This document shows positions 4,597 to 41,196 of a stretch of 41,407 bases of DNA, in pieces. The translations under genes were made by a program, and so were the position numbers. Below the pieces are notes generated by a model that worked only from the letters and a program-made list of their open reading frames with translations, made no database searches and had not been told where the DNA came from. How positions within the stretch are numbered: the first letter of the stretch is position 1; each line of letters starts with the position of its first letter. The stretch comes from Candidatus Bipolaricaulota bacterium (lineage in GTDB: Bacteria; Bipolaricaulota; Bipolaricaulia; RBG-16-55-9; DRXL01), in assembly GCA_025061735.1 (NCBI GenBank), contig JANXAU010000007.1, forward strand, positions 1 to 41,407. The letters are read 5' to 3'.

Positions 4597-5634
4597 ATGC
4601 GCGCGTCGGCCCGTCTTGTGGGGATAGGGACGCTCGCGCTGGCGCTCTGCTTTGTAGAGACGCGCGCCCTGCTGATCTCTAACATCGAGTTCGATCTGGC
4701 CCTGCCGCGCGGTGCCACCGAGACGTTTGCGTTCCAGCTCATCAACAACGAGACCGATCCGTTAGAGATTCAGATCAGTCTAGCCGATTGGGATCGCGAT
4801 CTCTACGGAGAGAATCGCTTCTATCCCCCGGGGACGCTGCCGCGCTCGGCGGCCAGCTGGCTGAGCGTCAGCCCCCTGAGATTCGAACTCGCCCGCAACG
4901 AGCAGCGAGAGGTCAAGTTCTCGCTCAGGGTCCCGCGCGACATCGAAGGGACCTATTGGGCAGCGATCTTGGTAGAGGCCAGCCCCAAGCAAGCCCAGCC
5001 CCACCCCGGCACCACGGTCGTCGTGCGCCGACGCTTCGCCGTCAAGATCTTCGAGACGCCGCCGGGGACGGGCCGGCGCGACGGACGCATCACCCTGCTC
5101 GACGTGCGGGGATTGAACCCCCCTAACGTCTGGCTGGAGTTTGAAAACCGCGGAACGATTCACACCCCACGAGTGACCGGGCGCGTCGAGATCCGCGACG
5201 AGAAGGGCGCTCTGGTGGAGAAGATCGAAGTTGACAGCTTCCCCACGCTCCCGGGAGCCAAGCGCCAACTGAAAGCGACCAGCTCTCGCAAGAAGGGAGA
5301 TCTTCTCCCTCCGGGGCGCTACGCCGTCCTGGCGATCTTGGACTATGGGGGGGAATCGCTCGCGGGGGGACAGTATATCCTGCGCATCTTGCCCTTAAGA
5401 TTAGTCCCTCTCGGCGAAGCCAAAGCCCCTCCCCAAGACCTCGACAGAGACGGACTCTACGAAGACACCAACGCCGATGGGGCGCTCTCGCTGGACGATG
5501 CCGCGCTCTTAGGCCTACATCTAGAGAAGCCCGCCGTGCAAGAGAACGCCCGCGCCTTCGACTTCGACAACGACGGCGACGCCGATCTGGACGACGTCCT
5601 AACGCTGAAAAAGATGGCCGAAGAGTCCAGATAA
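4597..5634 (+). CDS. Secreted chaperone-like beta-sandwich protein with C-terminal dockerin-like repeats
   Basis: Signal peptide; WLSVSPLRFELARNEQREVKFSLRVPRDIEGTYWAAILVEA; DLDRDGLYEDTNADGALSLDDAALL and DFDNDGDADLDDVLTLKKM (dockerin-like duplicated Ca-loops). Confidence 0.6.
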   Translation: MRASARLVGIGTLALALCFVETRALLISNIEFDLALPRGATETFAFQLINNETDPLEIQISLADWDRDLYGENRFYPPGTLPRSAASWLSVSPLRFELARNEQREVKFSLRVPRDIEGTYWAAILVEASPKQAQPHPGTTVVVRRRFAVKIFETPPGTGRRDGRITLLDVRGLNPPNVWLEFENRGTIHTPRVTGRVEIRDEKGALVEKIEVDSFPTLPGAKRQLKATSSRKKGDLLPPGRYAVLAILDYGGESLAGGQYILRILPLRLVPLGEAKAPPQDLDRDGLYEDTNADGALSLDDAALLGLHLEKPAVQENARAFDFDNDGDADLDDVLTLKKMAEESR

Positions 5635-5640
5635 AAACGC

Positions 5641-5704
5641 CCTCACCCCAAACCCTCTCCCGTAGAGGGGCCTAGCCCCTGCACAGGAGAGGGGGGAGGT
5701 GAGG
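5641..5704. repeat. C/G-rich palindromic repeat, copy A; possible bidirectional terminator between convergent genes
   Basis: CCTCACCCCAAACCCTCTCCCGTAGAGGGGCCTAGCCCCTGCACAGGAGAGGGGGGAGGTGAGG, nested inverted repeat. Confidence 0.75.
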
Positions 5705-13475: not shown

Positions 13476-14615
13476 ATGGCCCTCTTGGCTTTAGAAGACG
13501 GCCGAGTCTTTGAGGGGCGGCCCTTCGGTGCCGAAGGCCAGGTCTGCGCCGAGGTCGTCTTCAACACGGGCATGACCGGCTACCAAGAAGTCCTCACCGA
13601 CCCGTCTTATGCCGGCCAGATCGTCTGCATGACCTACCCCCATATCGGCAACTACGGGGTCAACTCCGAAGACGTCGAGTCGCTCCGCCCCTGGGTCACG
13701 GGGTTTGTCGTGCGAGAACTCTCGCAGAACTTCTCGAACTGGCGCGGACGCCTCACGCTCGATCAGTATCTCAAAAAATACGGGATCGTCGGGATCTGCG
13801 AAGTAGATACGCGCGCCCTCACGCGCCATATTCGCGAGCAAGGCGCGATGCGCGGCGCCCTCTCCAGCGACGAGAGCGATCCCCAAGAGCTGATCGAACG
13901 CGCCCGCCGCGCCCCCACGATCTCCGAGTTTGATCACGTCCGCTCCGTCACCTGCACGCAGCCCTACGAATGGAACGAACCCCTCCCCCGCGACTGGTAC
14001 GGCCCCCAAGAAGCCAAAGAGCTGCACATCGTCGCGGTGGACTACGGGATCAAACGCAATATTCTCAGACACCTACGCAGCCGCGCCACCAAAGTCACGG
14101 TCGTGCCCAGCTACTGGAGCGCCGAGCAGATCTTGCAGCTCAAGCCCGATGGGATCTTTCTCTCCAACGGCCCCGGCGACCCCGCTATTCTGAAAGACGC
14201 CATCCGCACGGTTCGTCAGCTCATCAAGTCCGAGCGCTGCCCGATCTTCGGGATCTGTCTGGGGCACCAAATTCTGGGCTTGGCCTTGGGCGCGCGCGCG
14301 TACAAACTCAAATTCGGCCACCGCGGCGCCAACCAACCCGTCAAGAATCTCCTCACCGAGCGCATCGAGATCACGACCCATAATCACGGCTTCGCCCTTG
14401 CCGATCTGCCCAAAGAGCTAGAGTTAACTCATATCAATCTGAACGATCACTCTATCGAGGGCTTTCGCCACAAGAAGCTCCCGATCTTTGCGGTACAGTA
14501 TCATCCGGAAGCGGCTCCCGGCCCGCACGATTCCCATAATCTCTTTGAGCAGTTTATCGAGCTTATTGGCTCACCCTCACCCCAGCCCTCTCCCTGGAAG
14601 GGAGAGGGGAGTTAA
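13476..14615 (+). CDS. carA: Carbamoyl-phosphate synthase small subunit
   Basis: [58 protein letters not shown] glutaminase triad region. Confidence 0.98.
14571..14611. repeat. C/G-rich palindromic repeat, copy B (carA 3' end)
   Basis: TCACCCTCACCCCAGCCCTCTCCCTGGAAGGGAGAGGGGAG. Confidence 0.8.
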
Positions 14616-40389: not shown

Positions 40390-41196
40390 ATGATGAGTGA
40401 TAGAGCGCGTCGCAAGTTGCTCGTGGCTAACTGGAAGATGCACTTTGTGCGCGCGCAGGCTCTTGAGTATTTGAGAGTCTTCACGGAGCGCGTGCGGGGA
40501 GTGCAGAAGACGGAGATCGTGCTCGCGCCGCCGTTCACACTGCTGGAGACCGTCGGGCGTGCCCTGCACGGCACGGGGATCAAGCTTGCCGCACAAGATC
40601 TTTTCTACGAGCGCGAGGGAGCGTTTACGGGAGAGATTTCAGCAATCATGCTGAAAGACTTGGGTTGCGCGTATGTGATCGTGGGGCACTCCGAACGACG
40701 ACGGCTCTTGGGCGAGACCGACGAAATAATCAATAAAAAGCTGAGAGCTGCGCTCGACGCCCAGATCGCTGCGATTCTCTGTGTGGGCGAGACGCTCGAA
40801 GAGCGTCGTGCGGGGAGGACTCACGCGGTGCTGGAGACCCAGATGCGCGGGGCGCTGGCGGGATTGAGACTCCCCTCTCCTTCTGAAGGGAGAGGGGATG
40901 GGGGTGAGGGTGAATGCCTCGTGATCTCTTACGAACCCGTGTGGGCCATCGGCACTGGCGTCAACGCTGCACCAGAAGAGGCCGAGGCAAGCGCGCTTTT
41001 CATTCGCGAGCTTGTGGCCCAGCTTTTCAATACAGAGATCGCGCAGAGAATTCGGATTCTTTACGGAGGCAGTGTGAAGCCTGAAAATTTTGGAGGCTTT
41101 GTGCAGCAGCCGAATATAGATGGAGCCTTAGTGGGTGGGGCGTCGCTCGACCCAGAAGCGTTTGCGCAGATGGCCAAAATAGCTGAGCGTTTATAA
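40390..41196 (+). CDS. tpiA: Triosephosphate isomerase with in-frame repeat-encoded insert
   Basis: RRKLLVANWKMHFV; VIVGHSERR; YEPVWAIGTG; ILYGGSVKPEN; insert LPSPSEGRGDGGEG. Confidence 0.97.
   Translation: MMSDRARRKLLVANWKMHFVRAQALEYLRVFTERVRGVQKTEIVLAPPFTLLETVGRALHGTGIKLAAQDLFYEREGAFTGEISAIMLKDLGCAYVIVGHSERRRLLGETDEIINKKLRAALDAQIAAILCVGETLEERRAGRTHAVLETQMRGALAGLRLPSPSEGRGDGGEGECLVISYEPVWAIGTGVNAAPEEAEASALFIRELVAQLFNTEIAQRIRILYGGSVKPENFGGFVQQPNIDGALVGGASLDPEAFAQMAKIAERL
40869..40914. repeat. C/G-rich palindromic repeat, copy C (inside tpiA, inverted relative to copy B)
   Basis: GACTCCCCTCTCCTTCTGAAGGGAGAGGGGATGGGGGTGAGGGTGA. Confidence 0.8.

Follow-up and report, generated by a model that had tools for sequence, protein, structure and literature searches.

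Putative triplex-motif repeats read in frame through triosephosphate isomerase and other conserved proteins of a Candidatus Bipolaricaulota bacterium

How does a triosephosphate isomerase (TPI) come to be encoded in part by a dispersed palindromic repeat, and how does the enzyme tolerate it? The question is raised by tpiA in the window analyzed here, a 41,407-nucleotide stretch of a Candidatus Bipolaricaulota genome, for which a preliminary description had proposed that a mobile-like palindrome, inverted relative to a repeat at the end of carA, sits in frame within the gene as a tolerated surface-loop peptide. The gene (40390–41196, + strand) is an intact open reading frame of 268 amino acids whose product profile searches identify as TPI (TIGR00419 above cut-off; PF00121, E = 1e-83), and the catalytic residues K16, H100 and E182 are invariant in a 45-sequence TPI alignment. 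The repeat lies at 40870–40913 (+ strand), where it provides the codons for LPSPSEGRGDGGEG, a peptide adjoining LVISYEPVWAIGTG on its N-terminal side; no match to it is expected in shuffles of the window. Strand beta-6 starts just downstream with LVISY (40918–40932, + strand; model strand 177–181), immediately 5′ of the catalytic EPVWAIGTG. Sequence, coordinates and frame were as first described.

The repeat has the layout of an intrastrand triplex. Its predicted arms, all on the + strand, are a pyrimidine arm, CCCCTCTCCTT (40872–40882), with one of 11 triads mismatched, a purine arm, AGGGAGAGGGG (40887–40897), and a third strand, GGGGTGAGGGT (40901–40911), antiparallel to the purine arm. Under a rule requiring three consecutive arms with class II triads (C-G-G, T-A-A/T), stems of 6–15, at most one mismatch and loops of 1–6 nt, the tpiA copy is a predicted class II triplex with 10/11 triads, a first loop of 4 nt and a second of 3 nt, a result that none of 391 random windows matched; the carA copy and the tpiA copies of two relatives, G003 and G005, also gave 10/11. 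As single-stranded DNA, the tpiA repeat folds better than its shuffles (hairpin z = −2.9). The related copy at the carA/carB junction (14571–14612, − strand), which was also detected by similarity, codes for the C-terminal tail of CarA; it is indeed an inverted relative of the tpiA repeat, opposite in orientation and 82% identical over query positions 10–54. The carA stop lies directly after this repeat, which supplies the last carA codons, and the likely carB start is just beyond. A third, more diverged copy (5641–5704, − strand) falls between an open reading frame at 4597–5634 and another starting at 5699.

Across the 1.64-Mb genome, the pattern GAGAGGN{2,6}GGGTGAG had 62 matches, compared with one for the reversed control pattern, and the tpiA stretch used as a query matched 41 places with E ≤ 10; copies were read in separate stretches of the genome, and degenerate copies elsewhere may escape these counts. 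The repeat is thus abundant outside tpiA, the genome holding about 60 copies in all. Elements are about 36–70 bp in length and come in two types, one short (ACCCTCTCCCTTTCAGGGAGAGGGATGGGGTGAGGGT) and the other longer, with an extended hairpin (GGCCCTCACCCC...CCCTCTCCCGTAGGTCACTACGGGAGAGGGGCTGGGGGTGAGGGCC). A strict triplex search that allowed a first loop of up to 8 nt fitted 38 of 72 listed places, the remainder being mostly copies with a longer hairpin loop or weak pattern matches.

By every feature computable from its sequence, the repeat belongs to the G/C-rich intrastrand triplex motifs (TM, TM_ECO; formerly PIT elements), a class found in over 260 bacterial genomes. Holder et al. (2015, PMC4666352) showed triplex folding with E. 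coli oligonucleotides and associate the motif with locally unstable DNA in E. coli. Common to TM_ECO and the repeat here are the arms CCCTCTCCC / GGGAGAGGG / GGGTGAGGG, a length of about 34–37 nt, and dispersal in both orientations with inverted pairs; over the 36-nt motif, the second loop is the sole difference between the carA copy and E. coli TM No. 12. Whereas the E. coli copies were reported to be always intergenic (PMC4666352), many copies here lie in frame inside conserved genes, and a second subtype is present with a longer hairpin and the ends GGCCCTCACCCC...GGGGTGAGGGCC. In the literature searched, which included little subscription literature, we found no account of conserved proteins encoded in part by triplex motifs.

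When the 72 listed places were scored by the codon usage of their flanks, 16 were read through in one open frame; the match at L181 was a false one and that in an ABC-transporter ATPase (L122) a weak remnant, and both were left out. This leaves at least 14 copies read in frame in this genome, spread over 13 conserved genes: tpiA, priA, a heavy-metal P-type ATPase gene, pepA, a cytochrome b gene, hutI, recG, a C45-family gene, mutL, purL (two copies), a TolB-like gene, an arginase-family ‘speB’ and tilS. CarA, as a C-terminal fusion with the repeat, is a further case. Given this count, and with different palindromes in the same tpiA loop of other species, the preliminary description was too narrow. 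The two inserts in purL (L172:2619–4868, − strand) are separate, at about residues 380–390 and 602–614, and the second was absent from all three relatives with data.

The closest parallel in behavior is provided by the Rickettsia palindromic elements (RPE; Ogata et al. 2000), which are 105–146 bp long and occur in frame in 19 reading frames; guanylate kinase with an RPE insert stays active with a changed substrate affinity (review PMC2229807). As with RPE, palindromic repeats are found here in frame in conserved proteins, are absent from orthologues and appear to be tolerated. They are shorter than RPE, have a triplex-motif sequence, occur in an uncultured lineage and, unlike RPE, differ between species at orthologous loops. 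In mode of action the repeat resembles an RPE; by its size it is not an RPE proper. The non-autonomous repeats ERIC/RU-1, RU-2 and RU-3, which carry open frames inside coding genes, are likewise small and fused in frame, but are longer (103–168 bp) and of other sequence (review PMC2229807). With MITEs the repeat shares terminal inverted repeats (GGCCCTCACCCC...GGGGTGAGGGCC, present in full-length copies such as that in hutI), but a target-site duplication of the MITE type was not visible on comparing empty and filled sites. REP/BIME sequences mobilized by RAYT are also short dispersed palindromes, sometimes in inverted pairs; we rejected this system for the present genome (G000, 93% complete), which contained no match to RAYT (PF01797), the only match across the two genera studied being a weak one in G008. 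Presence/absence polymorphism among species speaks indirectly in favor of the proposal that the palindrome is mobile-like; the lack of a visible target-site duplication, and of a transposase tied to the repeat in the search for RAYT, speaks against.

We examined the setting of the insert in an AlphaFold2 model of TpiA built from the 45-sequence alignment. The model had a mean pLDDT of 92 and a pTM of 0.91 and kept the TIM barrel; only the N-terminus and the insert (residues 169–173 below 50) were of low confidence. The insert, predicted to be disordered, lies between helix 5 (144–156) and strand 6 (177–181), in a loop at the N-terminal ends of the barrel strands, on the face away from the active site. 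Intact catalytic residues, an intact reading frame and the predicted fold support the idea of a tolerated surface-loop peptide. We conclude that tpiA of this lineage very probably gained a triplex motif by insertion, and that this element behaves as a protein-coding selfish palindrome of the RPE type, its peptide being tolerated. The insertion was probably kept because its length is divisible by three, it brings no stop codon and it falls in a solvent-exposed loop away from the active site; the peptide need have no function. A copy from elsewhere in the genome could have been duplicated into the gene, such inserts would be near-neutral, and loop tolerance would filter which insertions survive.

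The tpiA loop in related species agrees with such a history. The tpiA genes of G002, a member of the same genus, and of G006 have no insert and are 12 codons shorter, lacking both the residues and the repeat DNA; shared residues without repeat-like DNA, which would tell against an insertion, were not seen in these relatives. Compared with such clean relatives, the net gain in our tpiA is 36 nt, or 12 codons, and in 1b9b, the best solved relative, a 10-residue gap falls exactly at the insert. The TPIs compared from outside the family have no such insert. A scan of named genomes yielded no close relative; its best match had 56% TPI identity, and one match carried the label Candidatus Bipolaricaulota. 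The insertion is not a clean one in the strict sense, however, as the ancestral loop residues were replaced rather than cleanly split. Other triplex-motif inserts occupy the same loop in G003 and G005, and G003 reads its whole element in a different frame from G005, although the DNA of the two elements is nearly alike. In G009 the same loop holds an unrelated palindrome. It is a member of E2, a second family of dispersed repeats of about 70 bp (for example G009:C11:275–349, L371), for which we found, among 10 family genomes, 64 matches in G009, 48 in G008, 28 each in G003 and G007, 26 in G005 and 14 in the genome studied here. E2 codes in frame in TpiA, an ABC ATPase, RecG, PurL and MutL of relatives; in G005 recG (L332) it is nested inside a triplex motif with the frame kept, and in the G009 ABC ATPase it follows a triplex-like stretch. 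Two unrelated repeat families thus use the same loops.

Looking beyond tpiA, we took orthologous stretches for 15 sites (the ABC remnant counted) from eight family members. For 14 of the 15 sites, one or more of the other species had repeat DNA at the corresponding position, and for 10 this was so in the other genus. In that sister genus, 27 of 62 orthologous cells were occupied, against 1 of 490 off-site control windows (Fisher P about 1 × 10−27, a measure of contrast rather than a strict probability, as the cells are related by descent); the single occupied control was an intergenic copy. With interval lengths a multiple of three in all 78 orthologous cells, this indicates that the same loops have been occupied repeatedly. 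Some inserts were evidently inherited, namely that of HutI in G000 and G002, that of PepA in G000, G001 and G002, and those of TilS, the TolB-like protein and cytochrome b in G000 and G001, while SpeB, C45 and the TolB-like protein have different elements in the same loop among species.

Inserts common to independently assembled genomes cannot be assembly errors, and we reject that explanation. More broadly, the notion that a GC-rich loop resembles a repeat through low-complexity coincidence or artefact draws on the GC-richness of the DNA and on the source of the tpiA insert, which is known from one assembly of its species, a single MAG (G001 has no tpiA match at all). Set against the shared inserts, the excess of pattern matches over the reversed control and a triad count found in no random window, we give it a negligible chance.

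How the loops came to be occupied in so many species is less certain. One possibility, to which we assign somewhat less than even odds, is that certain surface loops of conserved enzymes are standing landing sites, in which further copies, or even an unrelated palindrome, repeatedly overwrite what is there with the frame kept. Where a loop already holds hairpin or triplex DNA, ectopic recombination or faulty repair at the hairpin would readily exchange the element for another copy; overwriting might occur because such a repeat is already present, or else because the loop tolerates repeats. Were this so, repeat turnover, and not point mutation, would drive the evolution of these loops. Alternatively, each loop may have gained its insert once, in the ancestor of the family, the later differences being due to ordinary divergence and several losses without any re-insertion or overwriting. 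The RecG and PriA inserts of several species do share orientation and reading frame (EALTP..SPV..RERG..), and parsimony on a weak family tree requires three changes in tpiA either way. This scenario sits poorly with the nesting of E2 in the triplex motif of G005 RecG and with inserts that are more alike than their flanks in HutI (0.98 versus 0.80, G000/G002) and C45 (0.92 versus 0.81, G000/G005), and overall we consider it unlikely. For tpiA itself, the frame difference between G003 and G005 and the presence of E2 in G009 lead us to disfavor vertical descent of a single insert.

Could selection instead maintain the inserts, through a function of the peptide, of the hairpin in the mRNA or of the triplex in the DNA, such as slowing translation before a strand or tuning activity? 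Occupation of the same loops in many species would fit, as would an RNA hairpin of −22.7 kcal/mol in the tpiA repeat and inserts more conserved than their flanks, among them cytochrome b (0.96 versus 0.83) in addition to HutI and C45. The RNA fold is only modestly better than shuffles (z = −1.8), however, and the same loop is served by different elements, frames and lengths, with sister species having none. The PepA, PriA and P-ATPase inserts have identities equal to or below those of their flanks, evolving as fast as or faster than these. Insert and flank identities being so mixed, uniform selection to keep the inserts is unsupported, and we regard a selected function as improbable.

A widespread class of repeat, reported from E. 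coli as always intergenic, is thus found in the coding sequence of core enzymes. The TPI loop, in one of the best-studied enzymes, offers a natural series of a clean state, a triplex motif in two frames and another palindrome, with which both the spread of a repeat without a known transposase and the cost of an insert to an enzyme become testable. Caution is also warranted in annotation, since predicted proteins that contain peptides like LTPSPSPV..RERG..GVRA may owe these to coding repeats. In another family of the same class, triplex-motif-like matches were not dispersed but strongly clustered, within tens of kilobases, in two genomes, G022 (C1:13–33 kb) and G025 (C1:417–492 kb).
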